Positions 5,057 to 43,057 are shown, counted from the first letter of the stretch. The stretch: 64,000 nucleotides of DNA from Prosthecobacter debontii (GCA_945870855.1 CAMBTP010000006.1:1-64000), one strand, 5' to 3'. Notes: a model not told the origin generated them from the sequence alone. Numbers and translations are program-made.

Positions 5057-5824
5057 ATGGATCGCTGGTTCTTGATCGCGGCAACCGCCCTCGCCGCTGT
5101 GGCGGGGGTGCGTGGCTTGCTGGTATTGAGGCACGGGAAGATGAGTTCCTGGACGGTATGGTGGATGATCGCGGCGCTGATCTGCCAGATCGGCTACCTC
5201 GTGATCCGGGGGGAAATGCGCGGGGCGTGCCCGCTTCGCAGCATCGGTGAAATTTCCGTGTATCTCGCGTGGTCGCTGACGCTTTTCTACCTGCTCGTCG
5301 GGCCGATGTATCGGATTTCCCTGCTCGGAGTGTTCACCGCGCCTGTGGTAGTTTTGTTCCAAAGCTTCGCGCTGCTGCCGGGTCGGCTGGCCGCAAATCC
5401 TGCGAAAATTCTCAACACAAACCCCTGGGGCGAGACGCATTCTGCAATGTCGGTGCTCGCCTACGGTGCTCTGGCGCTCGCGGCGGTGGCTGGGGTGATG
5501 TTCCTTGTGCTTGATCGCCAGCTTAAGGAGCACCAGCTCAAAGGTGGACTTTTCAGAAATCTCCCGCCGGTGCGTGAGTTGCTCGTTTCTCTGGAGCGGC
5601 TGCTTTGGATCGGGATGATCCTGCTGACCATCGGTCTGGTAGCAGGTTTGTTGATGCCGCATGGGCATGGTGCGAAGGCGCACCTTATCGCAGCGGTGGC
5701 GGTATGGGCGGGATACATCGCACTAATCGCGGTGAAGCGGGTCCGCGGAATCACCGGGCGGCGGTTCGCGTTAGGGGCGGTCGCGCTGTTTGTTCTTTCA
5801 CTGGGGGTTTTCGCTTTCGTCTGA
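5057..5824 (+). CDS. Cytochrome c assembly (CcsA/HemX-like) membrane protein
   Basis: Multi-TM protein directly upstream of hemA with the WGETHSAMSVLAYGALALAAVAG region typical of CcsA-like proteins. Confidence 0.8.
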   Translation: MDRWFLIAATALAAVAGVRGLLVLRHGKMSSWTVWWMIAALICQIGYLVIRGEMRGACPLRSIGEISVYLAWSLTLFYLLVGPMYRISLLGVFTAPVVVLFQSFALLPGRLAANPAKILNTNPWGETHSAMSVLAYGALALAAVAGVMFLVLDRQLKEHQLKGGLFRNLPPVRELLVSLERLLWIGMILLTIGLVAGLLMPHGHGAKAHLIAAVAVWAGYIALIAVKRVRGITGRRFALGAVALFVLSLGVFAFV

Positions 5825-36258: not shown

Positions 36259-37569
36259 ATGGCAGCCATTCTCATCATCGAAGACGAACACGCGCTGGGC
36301 AACGCGCTGGCTCTCGCTGTCCGACGTCTCGGGCATCTGCCGACGCTTGCCGCGAGCGGAGGGGCTGCGTTGAAACTACTCGTCGAGCGGAGGTTCGAGG
36401 CCATCGTTCTGGACATCGGGCTACCGGATGTCAGCGGCCTTGTGATCCTTGAAAAAATCCGCGCTGCCGGTTCGAAAATCCCCGTCCTCATTATCAGTGC
36501 TCATGCGACCCTTGATCATACGATCACCTCGCGGAAACTCGGGATCGCCGATTATCTAATCAAGCCGCTCGATCTCCAGCGCTTCGAAGAGGTCATTTCC
36601 TCGCTCGTCACAAAAAGTGTCCTCATCGCCGGCCCCGCCGAGCGCCCGGCGATTTCCCTGATCGGAGCTTCGCCGGGCATGCACCGGGTTTTTCTCGGAA
36701 TCGCGCGTGCCTGCGGAGGTGATCCGCCTGTCCTGATTCACGGCGCCAGTGGCACGGGAAAAACGCTTGCTGCGCGTTTGATTCATACAAACGGAAGTCG
36801 TGCTGCCGAACCATTGCGTCTGGTCGAATGCGGCTCGATCCATAGCGCCGATTCGTTACGTGCAAGCTTGGCCGATGCAAACGGCACGTTGGTTCTCGAA
36901 GACATCGATAGTCTCTCGCCAGAACTTCAGGGCGTGCTCGCCGAGGTAATGGGGCGAACGGATGTCCCGCTGCCGCGATTGATCGCTACCATGCGCGCCG
37001 ACCCTCGCGATCCCGCGATCGAAAACTCGCTGAGGGCAGACGTTTTTTACACCTTCAGCGCCCTCTCCATCGCGATGCCCGCGCTCCGTGATCGCACCGG
37101 CGACATCCCCGCCTTAAGCCGGTTTTTCAACGGAATCCATGGTGATACTGCGACCGCCTTTGAGATTTCCGCCTCCGCCCTGTGCGCCTTGCAGGCCTAT
37201 GCATGGCCAGGAAATGTCCGCGAACTGCGGCATGTGATCGAGCTTGCTCTGGCGATGAACCGCGGTGGCCCGCTGTTACCCGGACATCTGCCTCCCCATG
37301 TCGCCGAAGCCCTGCACACTTCGGGCGGGAAAGTGGTCGGCGGCGAGCTGGATGCCGTGATCGCCCGTTGGCTCGATTCACAGTTGGAAATGACCCCCGA
37401 GGCAAACTGGCAATACGACGACCTCCTGGAGCGGATCGAGAGCGCCATGCTCAAACACCTGTTAGAGCGCTTCGAAAACCGCCCCACACGCCTCGCCACC
37501 GCGCTGCGCCTCAACCGCGCGACCCTGCGCCAAAAACTCCGCCGTGCGGGGCTTTCCGGAGACTCATGA
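36259..37569 (+). CDS. NtrC-type response regulator (receiver + AAA+ + Fis HTH), apparently lacking GAFTGA
   Basis: Receiver VLDIGLPDVSG; Walker A HGASGTGKT; Walker B GTLVLEDID; YAWPGNVREL; C-terminal Fis-like helix. Confidence 0.9.
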   Translation: MAAILIIEDEHALGNALALAVRRLGHLPTLAASGGAALKLLVERRFEAIVLDIGLPDVSGLVILEKIRAAGSKIPVLIISAHATLDHTITSRKLGIADYLIKPLDLQRFEEVISSLVTKSVLIAGPAERPAISLIGASPGMHRVFLGIARACGGDPPVLIHGASGTGKTLAARLIHTNGSRAAEPLRLVECGSIHSADSLRASLADANGTLVLEDIDSLSPELQGVLAEVMGRTDVPLPRLIATMRADPRDPAIENSLRADVFYTFSALSIAMPALRDRTGDIPALSRFFNGIHGDTATAFEISASALCALQAYAWPGNVRELRHVIELALAMNRGGPLLPGHLPPHVAEALHTSGGKVVGGELDAVIARWLDSQLEMTPEANWQYDDLLERIESAMLKHLLERFENRPTRLATALRLNRATLRQKLRRAGLSGDS

Positions 37570-37572
37570 TTT
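37513..37572 (+). repeat. Putative attL: 60-nt direct repeat at the 3' end of the response regulator gene
   Basis: AACCGCGCGACCCTGCGCCAAAAACTCCGCCGTGCGGGGCTTTCCGGAGACTCATGATTT; matches 42921-42980 with 2 mismatches. Confidence 0.9.
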
Positions 37573-37628
37573 TCCGCGCCTGCCATGTGAATGCACGCAC
37601 CTTGACTAGGCCTAGACAGTTTGATAAC

Positions 37629-39068
37629 ATGGCTGCACAAAACCAATGTTTTGATCCGCCAAATCCGCTAAAACCCTTACAAAACAAGGGGATTTATGCC
37701 CGTAATGACCCCTTTGTTGACATGCCAGACACTGGTATGAATGGCTCTGGTGACAAAGTGGTGACAAAACCTGATTCGGGCTCCACCGCCCGCTCAAGAA
37801 AAAAACAAGGGCCTTATCTCAAGGTCAAATTCGGATCAACTGTGGTGCCTATCTATCGCACGGTGGCAAATGGAAGAACCCGCTTCACTCTCAGCTTTTA
37901 CCGCAATCGGCGACGGGAACGTAAAACCTTCAGCTCGCTGGACGAAGCGAAGAAGGAAGCGCTCTTCGTGGCGCAGCGGGTTCAGAGCGGGATGCAACAC
38001 GTCACTGATCTCAAGCCGCACGAACGCGACAGCTACAAGGCGGCGGAGGCACTGTTGGAAAAGCTCGGTATTTCGCTGTATTCCGCCGTGGAGGACTACG
38101 TGAGCGCACGAACATTAGCCGGAACTCAATCGCTGACTGTGATGGCCACCGATTATGCAAAAATGTGCGGATCAGTTATGCGCCGTATTACAGTCACTGA
38201 GCTTTTCCCCGAATTCATGGCAAGAAAAGAGCAGGACGGCCTTAGCCGTAAATATCTCTACAATCTGCGGGGACTTCTTAGGCGTTTCATGGAAAAGTTT
38301 CCAGGTCCCATCCTTGAGGTCACCGGTCCTGACGTCGATGCTTGGATACGGTCTCTTTACACTGGGGCGTCTTCAAGAAAGGCACTGCTGCTTGTAATCA
38401 AGACGTTCTTCGCCTTTGCCAAGGAGCAGAATTACTTGCCTGCGGATAGGCGTAGCGTGCTCGAGCTCATAAAGCTGCCCACTGTAAAATCTACCGAACA
38501 CACGGCGATATTCACACCCGAGCAAATGGAGAAAGTGTTGCACAACGCACCTCCGTCACTGGTTCCAATTTTTGCCATTGCAGCGTTTGCAGGTATTCGT
38601 ATGGCTGAAATTGATCGCCTTGATTGGTCTGCCATAGACTTGGACAGGCGCATCATTGAGTTGCGAGCTGGGCAAACAAAGACTGCGTCACGGCGCGTCA
38701 TCCCGATCAGCGACAATCTGTATGCTTGGTTGGCTCCATTGCCACGCGTCGGAAAGGTGGTTCTCAATACAACTCAGCATTTGGACATGTCTCGGCTATC
38801 TCGTGCACTGGGTATTGAATGGCCGCCCAACGTGCTACGGCACTCCTTTATCAGTTACCGGATCGCCATCGTCCAGAGTGCCGACCAAGTGGCGCTGGAG
38901 GCAGGAAACTCGGCGACCATCATCTTCAAGCACTACCGCGAGCTGACCACGCCCGAGGTGGCGGAGAAATGGTTCAGTATCCTGCCCAAGGAAGGTCAGT
39001 GGGAAAACACTTTCCGATATGACCGCAAGAGGCGACGGGTGATCCTCAACGGAGTGGAATACCAGTGA
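37629..39068 (+). CDS. Tyrosine-type site-specific recombinase/integrase; start uncertain
   Basis: Box I AAFAGIRMAEIDRLDW, box II PPNVLRHSFISYR, candidate nucleophile in IIFKHYRELTT. Confidence 0.88.
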   Translation: MAAQNQCFDPPNPLKPLQNKGIYARNDPFVDMPDTGMNGSGDKVVTKPDSGSTARSRKKQGPYLKVKFGSTVVPIYRTVANGRTRFTLSFYRNRRRERKTFSSLDEAKKEALFVAQRVQSGMQHVTDLKPHERDSYKAAEALLEKLGISLYSAVEDYVSARTLAGTQSLTVMATDYAKMCGSVMRRITVTELFPEFMARKEQDGLSRKYLYNLRGLLRRFMEKFPGPILEVTGPDVDAWIRSLYTGASSRKALLLVIKTFFAFAKEQNYLPADRRSVLELIKLPTVKSTEHTAIFTPEQMEKVLHNAPPSLVPIFAIAAFAGIRMAEIDRLDWSAIDLDRRIIELRAGQTKTASRRVIPISDNLYAWLAPLPRVGKVVLNTTQHLDMSRLSRALGIEWPPNVLRHSFISYRIAIVQSADQVALEAGNSATIIFKHYRELTTPEVAEKWFSILPKEGQWENTFRYDRKRRRVILNGVEYQ

Positions 39069-39497
39069 CCGCCCGTCCTATTTGCGCGCCAACTACGCCT
39101 AACGGAAGCGGAATGGAGGTGTGAGGGCTGGGGACACCGGCACACCTTGCGCGTCCGGAACGTGCTCCTACGCGGCACCCAACGCTAAATACTGGGCTTG
39201 GGATGAAGTCCTTTCATCCGTCAAAAAACCGCGATAAAAGAATTCTTGGCAGAGCGGCTTGGAGAGCTACAGTCGCGGCGAATAAATACCGTGGTGAAAA
39301 TCCCCAACCCCCATTTCCCTGCCCTCCAATCTTCGCCAAAGCTACGACATGGGGCGGTCCAACCCAATGGCTCTTTTAGAAGGCTCCAGCCCAAAGCAAA
39401 TTCCTAGCACCGAACGGGTTTTTTTCCCGATCCATGATCCGTGCCTGTGCGCGGATTACGTTTTCCATTTTTTCACCAACCAAACCAACCAAACACC

Positions 39498-41570
39498 ATG
39501 AAATTTACCAAACTTATCCCACTATCCCTCATCATCCACGTTTCCGCGCAGGAAACACCCACGACAGGCGAACTCGATCCCCTCACCCTCACCGGCAAGG
39601 CCGAGAGCCTGATCGGCACCGCCGGCACCGCATCCAAAGGCCAGGCGAACCACGAAGAACTACTGGAAAGGCCGTACTTGCGGCGAGGCGAGCTGCTTGA
39701 GGTCGTGCCCGGTGTGATCATCACCCAGCACTCCGGCGACGGAAAGGCGAACCAGTATTTCGTCCGCGGCTTCAACCTCGACCACGGCACCGATTTCTCC
39801 ATCTCGATGGACGGGCAGCCGGTGAACTTCGTGACCCACGCCCACGGCCAGGGATACGCGGATCTCAACCCGCTGATCCCCCAGTTGGTGGAAAGCATCG
39901 ATTACTGGAAAGGCCCCTTTCACGGCCAACTCGGCGATCTCAGCACGGCGGGCGGGACGCGGTTCAACTTTTTCGACACCCTGCCAAGCGGCATCGCAAG
40001 CATCGGCATGGGGCAGCACAATTTCTTCCAAGGTCTGCTTGCGGATACGATCTACCTCCGCCAAAAGGACGCGAACGGGGATTTCTCCGCGCTGACCTAC
40101 GGGCTGGAATACAACTACTACGACGGCCCCTGGCAGCGCGAGGGGAACTCCCAGCGCTCCAACGGTTTCCTGAAATACTTCCAGCAATCCGGGCGCGACA
40201 GCTTCAGCGTCACGGCGATGGCCTACGATGCGGAGTGGGACTCCACCGACCAGATTCCGAAACGCCTCATCGACAGCGGTGCGCTCGACCGTCTCGGAAA
40301 CATCGACAACACCGTGGGCGGCGAATCCAGCCGCTACAGCCTGATGGCGGAGTGGAACCGCGACGAGGCCAACGGGCGAACTCATGCGGATGTTTTCGTC
40401 GGCACATACGACATGGATCTGTTCTCGAACTTCACATACAACCTCGACAATCCTGACACGCCGTTCGACGAATCCGGCCCGGGAAACCAGTTCGAGCAGG
40501 AGGACGGGCGCTGGTTCCTCGGTGGCGAGGTGCGGCGCGAGTGGGATTACGACACGGACAACACCTTTACCGTGGGCTTGCAGACGCGGCACGATTTCCT
40601 GAGCGGCATCGGCCTCTACAACACCACAGCAAGGGTGCGGAACAGCGCGGTGCGGGTGGATGATGTCACGCAAAGCAGCGCGGGCATTTACGCCATGGCG
40701 GATCACCGCGTGAACCATTGGCTGCGCTTGCAGCCCGCATTGCGTGCGGACGGATTCCACTTCGATGTGGAAAGTGACAATCCGGTGAACTCCGGATCGG
40801 AGACCGACGGGATCGTCAGTCCCAAGCTCAACGTGGCCTTCGGCCCATGGAACGACACGGAGTTCTACGCGAGTGCCGGTCTCGGCTTCCACTCGAACGA
40901 CGCGCGCGGTGTCACCATCACCACCGATCCCGTCACCGGCCAGCCGGTCGATCCCGCCGATCCGCTGGTGCGGACATTCGGCTATGAGCTCGGCATGCGG
41001 ACGGAAGCATTCGAGAAAATCGTCAGCACGGTGGCGATTTTCTACCTGCATAGTGATTCGGAGCTGATCTATGTCGGCGATGCGGGCACGGCGGAACCCG
41101 GCGGTGCCACCGAGCGCTTCGGCATCGAGTGGGCAACATATTGGACGCCGAGCGAATGGCTGATGGTTGATAACGAGCTGACCCTCAGCGAGGCGAAGCT
41201 GCTCAACGATCCCGCTGGCAACGAAATTCCCGGCTCGGTACCCATGACAATGAGCACCGGTTTCACCATCGGCGCGGATGAGGGTGTGTATGGCGCACTT
41301 CGCTCCCGCTTTTTCAGCCCCCGCCCACTGGTCGAAGACGGCAGCGTGGATTCGCGCATGTCATGGCAGCTCAACGGTCGCCTCGGATACCGTAAAAACG
41401 ATTGGGAGGTCGCGCTTGATGTGCTGAACATCCTAGGTCGTGACGACAATGACATCGAATATTTCTACACCTCCCGCCTCCCCGGCGAGCCGGTAGAGGG
41501 TGTCGATGACGTCCATCTCCACCCCACCGAGCCACGCACCTTCCGCGTTTCCCTCACCAAGTATTTCTAA
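39498..41570 (+). CDS. TonB-dependent receptor (island cargo)
   Basis: Signal peptide MKFTKLIPLSLIIHVSAQ; plug GELLEVVPGVIITQHSGDGKANQYFVRGFNLDHGTDF; C-terminal FRVSLTKYF. Confidence 0.93.
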   Translation: MKFTKLIPLSLIIHVSAQETPTTGELDPLTLTGKAESLIGTAGTASKGQANHEELLERPYLRRGELLEVVPGVIITQHSGDGKANQYFVRGFNLDHGTDFSISMDGQPVNFVTHAHGQGYADLNPLIPQLVESIDYWKGPFHGQLGDLSTAGGTRFNFFDTLPSGIASIGMGQHNFFQGLLADTIYLRQKDANGDFSALTYGLEYNYYDGPWQREGNSQRSNGFLKYFQQSGRDSFSVTAMAYDAEWDSTDQIPKRLIDSGALDRLGNIDNTVGGESSRYSLMAEWNRDEANGRTHADVFVGTYDMDLFSNFTYNLDNPDTPFDESGPGNQFEQEDGRWFLGGEVRREWDYDTDNTFTVGLQTRHDFLSGIGLYNTTARVRNSAVRVDDVTQSSAGIYAMADHRVNHWLRLQPALRADGFHFDVESDNPVNSGSETDGIVSPKLNVAFGPWNDTEFYASAGLGFHSNDARGVTITTDPVTGQPVDPADPLVRTFGYELGMRTEAFEKIVSTVAIFYLHSDSELIYVGDAGTAEPGGATERFGIEWATYWTPSEWLMVDNELTLSEAKLLNDPAGNEIPGSVPMTMSTGFTIGADEGVYGALRSRFFSPRPLVEDGSVDSRMSWQLNGRLGYRKNDWEVALDVLNILGRDDNDIEYFYTSRLPGEPVEGVDDVHLHPTEPRTFRVSLTKYF

Positions 41571-41745
41571 GAGTCGAAGCCAACCCCCATTTCCCCGCCC
41601 TCCGGTCCGTCCCAATGGCTGTTTCAGAAGGCTCCCGCCAAAAGCATGATAAAATTTCCCTGATAAAATTTCCTGATAAAATTTCCCAGGGAAATAGTAG
41701 GAAATTCCTGTTGCTATGGGAAATTTTGCGGGTAGGATCGGGGGA

Positions 41746-42879
41746 ATGAGTAGTAAGCGATTCCTGAGTCCTTGGAAAAATTCGTCGGAGAAGCCGGTGA
41801 TTTATCACTGCGTATCGCGGGTGGTGGATCGGCGGTTTGTGTTGAAGGAGGAGGAGAGGGAGAAGTTCCGCATGTTCATGAGGATGGTCGAGAATTTCAG
41901 CGGTTGCCGGGTTCTTTCCTACTGCCTGATGTCCAACCACTTCCACATTCTCCTCGAAGTGCCGCCCGCGCCTGCCGAGGGGGTTTCCGATGGGGAAATC
42001 CTGCGGCGCCTGGGGGCGATTTACAGCGAGGCGGCGGTGGCTGCGATCGCCCGTGAAATGGAGGAAGCTAGGGCGGAGGGAGCGGAGGCGCTGCTAGGGG
42101 AAATTCGTCTGCGGCACACGCGGCGCATGCACGACCTCAGCGAGTTCATGAAAGCTCTGCTGATCCGTTTTACCCGCTGGTTCAACCGCACGCACCAGCG
42201 TACCGGAACCTTGTGGGAAGATCGCTTCAAGAGCGTGATTGTGGAAAGCGGTTTGGCGGCGCGGACAATGGCGGCGTATATCGACCTGAATCCGGTCCGT
42301 GCGGGGATGGTGGAAGATCCGGCGGAGTATCGTTGGAGCAGCTATGGCGAGGCAGTGGGTGGAGGCAAAAAGGGAAACGGGAAGAAGGCGCGGGAAGGAT
42401 TGGTGCGGGCGAACCGTTGCGACAAAGGGGTGGGATTTGATGCCACGCAATGGCTGGAAGTGGCGAAGAATTACCGGATCCTATTGGGAATGGCGGTGGC
42501 GAGGAAGCGTGGGAAGGCGAAGTTGGAAGAGATGATGGGGAAAGGGAAAGCCCCCGGGAAAGCAGCGGAGATGCGGAACATGAATATGGAGGAAATCATC
42601 GAGCATCTAGAGAAAACAGGCCAGACGATAGGTTTGCCCGACCTAACTGCGGCGAAGATATTGAGGATGCGGGTGAGATACTTTACGGACGGGGCGGTGA
42701 TTGGAAGCAAGGCGTTTGTGAACGAGGCGTTCGCGGGGGCGCGGGAGAGGTTTTCGGCGAAGAGGAAGGATGGTGCGCGACGGATGCGGGGCAGCGGCGC
42801 GGCGGCGAAGGGGGTATTGTGGAGTATTCGGGATCTGCGAGTGGGGGTCGGAATTGAGGACTTACAACGATCATCGTGA
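41746..42879 (+). mobile_element. Y1_Tnp/RAYT-like transposase, long form (~378 aa)
   Basis: VIYHCVSRVVDRRFVL, YCLMSNHFHILLEVP (HUH), RTGTLWEDRFKSVIVE, YIDLNPVRAGMVEDPAEYRWSSY. Confidence 0.92.
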
Positions 42880-42920
42880 CTGACGCCCGAACCACATGAC
42901 TGAAAATCGCACGGCGCCTG

Positions 42921-42980
42921 AACCGCGCGACCCTGCGCCAAAAACTCCGCCGTGCAGGGCTTTCCGGGGACTCATGATTT
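42921..42980 (+). repeat. Putative attR: second copy of the response regulator 3' end
   Basis: Encodes ...NRATLRQKLRRAGLSGDS* identical to the regulator C-terminus, detached from any gene. Confidence 0.9.
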
Positions 42981-43057
42981 CCCGAGTTTTGCCATCGAGC
43001 GGTTATGGGGAATACGCAGTAAGACGACGCTGCACGTAAGATCAATGCAAGAGCTGC

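Follow-up and report, generated by a model that had tools for sequence, protein, structure and literature searches.

Islands in protein genes are common, with 43.4% of islands in coding sequences against 33.8% in tRNA/tmRNA genes (PMC12424338). Combinations of an integrase with ISCR are likewise known from GIsul2 (PMC9376610), and a rolling-circle route is the presumed means by which ISCR elements mobilize neighbouring genes (PMC13393415). Since protein-gene islands and integrase-ISCR combinations have thus already been described, the locus that we analyzed is a variation on known kinds. A first-pass annotation of this DNA knew of no described element with such a target and cargo. Our search of openly accessible literature agrees insofar as it turned up no account of an island inserted at the 3' end of a gene for an NtrC-like regulator, but target and cargo do not make a new element class.

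The window, a 64,000-nucleotide stretch of contig C6 (assembly of 2.98 Mb in 91 contigs), was compared with genomes of the same genus, which are Akkermansiaceae/Verrucomicrobiaceae MAGs; 73 genomes were surveyed. Our data suggest that the region from 37.5 to 43.0 kb is probably not one integrase element but a composite insertion with nested parts, placed where the regulator and DUF2238 genes meet. Its features are collected in Table 1. Domain searches agreed with the gene identities originally assigned (NtrC-type regulator, PF00589 integrase, TonB receptor, and Y1/RAYT gene), the gene at 41743-42879 scoring 61.8 bits against the NCBIfam model REP_Tyr_transpos (NF047646), for which the cut-off is 80.

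Table 1. Features of the regulator-adjacent insertion, in window coordinates
Feature	Position	Strand	Basis or remark
NtrC-like response regulator gene, intact, target side	36262..37569	+	Response_reg, Sigma54_activ_2, AAA_lid_14, HTH_8
Regulator tail, left copy of direct repeat	37513..37576	+	Repeat comparison and assembly search
36-bp arm common to window and G068 downstream of regulator; possibly decayed DUF2238 3' end	37577..37612		Flank comparison
LE, left end of integrase unit, opening with half palindrome TAGACAGT-TTGATAA	37613..37703	+	Terminus common to G066:C20, G068:C172, and G020:C4
Tyrosine recombinase, 448 aa, open	37722..39068	+	PF00589; R291, H374-x-x-R, and H404/Y405 motifs present
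Putative right-end region of IS91-like element, after integrase	39219..39409	+	Ends in RE copy 1 (39306-39409, ..GCAAATTCCTAGCA)
Putatively captured segment with TonB-dependent receptor gene (~39498-41570)	39410..41579	+	Homology limits at RE borders; Plug and barrel domains
RE copy 2, without last ~10 nt	41580..41646	+	nhmmer match 41582-41646
Y1/RAYT-like transposase gene	~41743..42879	+	PF01797 (Y1_Tnp) above cut-off; NF047646 below cut-off
Regulator tail, right copy of direct repeat	42914..42984	+	Repeat comparison and assembly search
DUF2238 gene, leftover 3' end	42978..43028	-	Comparison with G038 and G066

The recurrence of the regulator 3' end at the right boundary, on which the annotation was built, is real. 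The direct repeat (37479-37576 and 42887-42984) comprises 98 nt at 85% identity with a spacing of 5408; its core starts at ~42914 and contains about 4 mismatches in ~66 nt, so that the duplicated part is the final ~64 nt of the regulator gene. A search of the whole assembly returned these two copies far above chance (E values of 9.7e-47 and 2.9e-26) and no third, making them a unique pair. The repeat spans the overlapping stop codons of the convergent regulator and DUF2238 genes. Regulator orthologues are found in G038 (94% amino acid identity), G068 (90%), and G066 (88%). In G038 and G066 a lone regulator tail, which in G038 reads ..GACTCATGATTTTCCGAGTTTCGCCATCGAG.., runs directly into the right flank of the window's insertion; next comes DUF2238, convergent with the regulator, and the two stop codons overlap in TCATGA. 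The same two genes adjoin each other in G024, G067, and G069. The single-copy empty site that the annotation had proposed to look for in relatives thus exists in two of them, which indicates that ~5.4 kb was inserted in the window lineage: the stretch beside the regulator is a real insertion, absent from close relatives. Separately, the DUF2238 gene of the window is missing ~580 bp at 43028 compared with G038 and G066.

The integrase unit has a left terminus of its own within this insertion. When 37570-37725 was searched against DNA of the whole genus, three loci (G066:C20, G068:C172, and G020:C4) matched rightwards from 37613 or 37620 and none extended further left, while their left flanks are unrelated to one another and to the regulator. 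The left terminus of the window's unit therefore lies at ~37613, 37 bp inside the insertion. The regulator-side match of a further contig, G068:C21, covers only 37570-37623, and where regulator-side and LE matches meet it reads TAGACCGTTTGCGAAACGGTCTA, in which inverted 8-bp arms flank a centre of 7 bp. The corresponding 23-bp palindrome has the form TAGACCGT-TTGCSAA-ACGGTCTA and stands intact and unoccupied at this place in G068. Further intergenic palindromes with up to 3 mismatches were found in G068 (two), G002 (one), and G038 (one), compared with one control match in 73 genomes. The loci L246, L249, L250, L248, and L247 (G002, G068, and G038) carry this 23-bp palindrome between genes in the near-perfect form TAGACCGTTTGCCAAACGGTCTA.

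The left ends read TAGACAGT-TTGATAA-CATGG in the window, TAGACCGT-TTGCCAA-CATGG in G020:C4, and TAGACCAT-TTGCCAA-CATGG in G068:C172. We infer from these that each may consist of a chromosomal arm, a core, and the element, the expected look of attL at a palindromic attB. The G066:C20 copy, in which LE begins a few bases later and the half palindrome is poor, counts against this reading. A search for the right half-site gave nothing convincing at the window's right end, so integration at the palindrome is deduced from the left ends only. At a tRNA-Met-linked integrase in G000:C16 (L005 ~1303; L049), the common downstream sequence breaks off inside TTGGCAAACAGTCTA, half of the 23-bp palindrome; this break is possibly a right junction.

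The annotation had further supposed that the integrase uses the regulator 3' end, and here the comparison with its family pointed elsewhere. The survey of 73 genomes revealed about 40 related integrases, about 30 of which lie 43-78 bp downstream of a tRNA gene on the same strand. Their subclades follow tRNA identity: Leu(aag), Leu(cag), Lys(ctt), Arg(acg), Met(cat), Tyr(gta), and Phe(gaa). The window integrase shares 57-69% amino acid identity with the tRNA-linked copies, and three further copies in its own genome obey the tRNA-adjacent rule. Its closest relatives, at 88%, are two copies in G020; no tRNA gene adjoins either of these or the window integrase itself. The annotation had suggested looking for family members next to HTH-gene 3' ends; of the related copies examined, none lies beside a regulator tail. 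With relatives at tRNA 3' ends and a left terminus at ~37613, inside the insertion, the supposed use of the regulator 3' end by this integrase is not supported.

A distant branch of integrases (35% amino acid identity) adjoins tRNA-Ser, and in L239 a repeated fragment of the tRNA 3' end directly precedes the integrase, evidence in favor of tRNA attachment in the family at large. L239 at ~5100-5600 carries, in reverse orientation, tRNA-Ser and a second copy of its 3' end; the integrase comes next and is followed by one small gene of HTH-like type and by a transposase of IS91 type, an arrangement that looks like stacked tRNA islands. Within a few kilobases of the tRNA-linked copies, no convincing far-end tRNA repeats were found. 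The conserved region after the integrase was considered as a structured RNA and rejected (z-score of -0.31; no Rfam match near threshold). An intergenic repeat of the type TTTCAACTCTCAAGGAAGAAG occurs at L084, L083, L015, and L016, in several genomes, and also directly before both G020 integrase copies.

Downstream of the integrase, a second system comes into view. A ~76-bp repeat, RE, begins about 240 bp past the integrase stop codon, ends at 39409, and recurs after the TonB gene. Homology of the TonB segment to G066 (39412-41561) and to G024 (39409-41581) begins and ends at the RE copies, and in G003 a TonB homologue likewise lies between two RE copies. In G019, and by sequence also in G024, a HupE/UreJ gene follows the counterpart of the receptor gene; on the strength of this neighbour we would guess at a role in metal uptake. 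RE is present in 55 of the 73 genomes and forms same-direction arrays at L238, L239, L240, and L245 (G071:C128, G042:C22, G053:C265, and G060:C56), in which the segments between copies range from 34 to 67% GC. L185 (G020:C4) has one copy each of LE and RE with tandemly repeated units of roughly 190 bp between them.

Genes with Y2_Tnp and Zn_Tnp_IS91 domains stand upstream of RE in L239, L173, and L240, with a homologue in L245, and L238, L209, and L201 retain only the C-terminal ends of IS91-type transposase genes there. In total, seven loci of relatives thus have an IS91-type Y2 transposase gene or its C-terminal end just upstream of RE; the window segment itself has no Y2 transposase gene left. 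These upstream genes make the right end of an IS91/ISCR-family element the best reading of RE. The similarity between L173 and L239 ends at the RE 3' end, and integrase remnants have mostly lost their 5' part and retained their 3' part, the pattern to be expected if rolling-circle capture is one-ended. Shuffled sequences fold as well as RE does, and the dinucleotide GC follows it in the arrays viewed. The lack of a significant fold led us to discard RE as an attC site or a REP palindrome, and two observations led us to reject it as the cognate site of the window's integrase family: the G071 arrays occur without that integrase, and many tRNA-linked integrases occur without RE.

Considering these data, we propose that the locus was built in layers. 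The junction between the convergent genes would first have been opened, with duplication of the regulator tail. A recombinase unit of the tRNA-targeting family would then have entered, its left end at the 23-bp palindrome just past the regulator, presumably by site-specific recombination at the TTGCSAA core. IS91/ISCR-like rolling-circle transposition at fixed ~76-bp right ends would have linked one such end with the integrase gene and brought in, as captured DNA, the segment carrying the TonB receptor gene, and the RAYT gene would form a fourth layer. The repeats, the empty site, the common termini, the tRNA linkage of the relatives, and the Y2 genes upstream of RE in relatives were observed directly; the order of these events and the enzyme responsible for each are inferred.

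The annotation had instead described a single integrative element of ~5.4 kb, in which the regulator 3' end serves the integrase as attB while the carried copy regenerates the gene. Much of its factual basis stands: there is an insertion with a duplicated tail beside an open integrase, and the empty site in G038 and G066 is exact, just as a simple att model predicts. The repeat mismatches also lie towards the outer parts, like differences between attP and attB. What does not hold is the unity of the element. The integrase unit has a terminus within the insertion that recurs at three loci without the regulator tail, its relatives target tRNA genes while no other copy has that tail, and the receptor cargo is separately bounded by terminal repeats of a different, IS91-type system. 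We therefore consider a single element unlikely. For the cargo, one might also think of a chromosomal integron, with RE as its attC and the TonB gene as a cassette, since the arrays run in one direction and the gene segments that they enclose deviate in GC; as the RE ends lack RYYYAAC/GTTRRRY pairing, no significant fold is formed, and IS91-family transposase genes precede RE, this explanation is highly improbable.

Within the layered explanation, the origin of the tail duplication has to be sought elsewhere than in the window integrase, which is unlikely to have made this repeat because its terminus lies inside the insertion. One scenario, which we regard as a serious candidate although short of probable, is an accidental partial duplication, the left side being G068-like, the right side G038-like, and illegitimate recombination having fused the two. 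The left arm at 37577-37612 weakly resembles a decayed DUF2238 3' end and has a 12-bp deletion in common with G068, and the right tail copy resembles the intact junction. If real, this similarity would make the left side native flank and the repeat an accidental duplication; it is weak, however, with a p value of about 0.006 per comparison (arm versus the DUF2238 3' end of G066), uncorrected for the several comparisons made. Alternatively, the repeat may be left from an older outer element at the gene junction, which has lost its recombinase and was followed later by the present integrase, a scenario that we hold to be only slightly less likely. In its favor, G068 past the regulator carries the same 36-bp arm and then foreign DNA, with a gene for a large YDG/MBG-repeat protein, until the contig end, and the regional tree pairs the window with G068 (UFBoot 74). 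Nevertheless, a DNA search found the arm nowhere else in the genus, and no second tail was seen in G068, a genome only 66% complete. With the window and G068 paired in the tree, one old event in their ancestor would suffice. Both scenarios fill the first layer and thus overlap with the layered explanation, and the weights given to them do not sum to one with it.

The nested composite insertion that we favor has wider implications. A locus can be composite even where repeat, integrase, and empty site together give a textbook attachment signature, and such a repeat should not be credited to the nearest integrase. Target switching can also be put to the test here, since within a single recombinase family most subclades are tied to one tRNA each and one subclade apparently to a palindrome between genes. 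The arrays of IS91-like capture seen across the genus are a more interesting by-product than target or cargo; they suggest a route by which these bacteria gain single genes, such as the receptor gene. We tentatively advance the idea that Akkermansiaceae possess a genus-wide mode of gene capture. Right ends of ~76 bp and IS91-like type, frequently attached to tyrosine recombinases specific for tRNA genes, would assemble foreign gene segments into arrays of one direction, so that rolling-circle transposition would arrive at a result resembling an integron; the window recombinase would have exchanged tRNA genes for an intergenic palindrome of 23 bp. In the literature searched, arrays of this IS91-like kind, spread through a genus and linked to tRNA integrases, had no match, and they may still have been described.

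Among known systems, the dusA islands likewise have a protein-coding gene as their integration site, but theirs is common to many members, whereas the regulator site was seen once here (PMC4482086). In tRNA-targeting islands (Islander/TIGER), as in the family described here, the integrase lies directly past the tRNA 3' end with one subclade per tRNA; unlike these, the window copy has no adjoining tRNA (PMC12424338). GIsul2, with its ISCR2-related CR2-sul2 unit, also brings a tyrosine integrase together with an IS91/ISCR-type element, its attachment site lying downstream of the protein-coding guaA and its integrase moving both parts (PMC9376610). Here, by contrast, the integrase belongs to a family found at tRNA genes, its window copy has a palindrome as its terminus, and movement of both parts together is only putative. 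While the window differs from IS91/ISCR elements in having no Y2 transposase gene left, and those of the genus in often standing beside tRNA-specific integrases, they have in common a Y2/HUH transposase gene, one fixed end, the carriage of adjacent genes, 5'-truncated copies, and same-direction arrays (PMC13393415).
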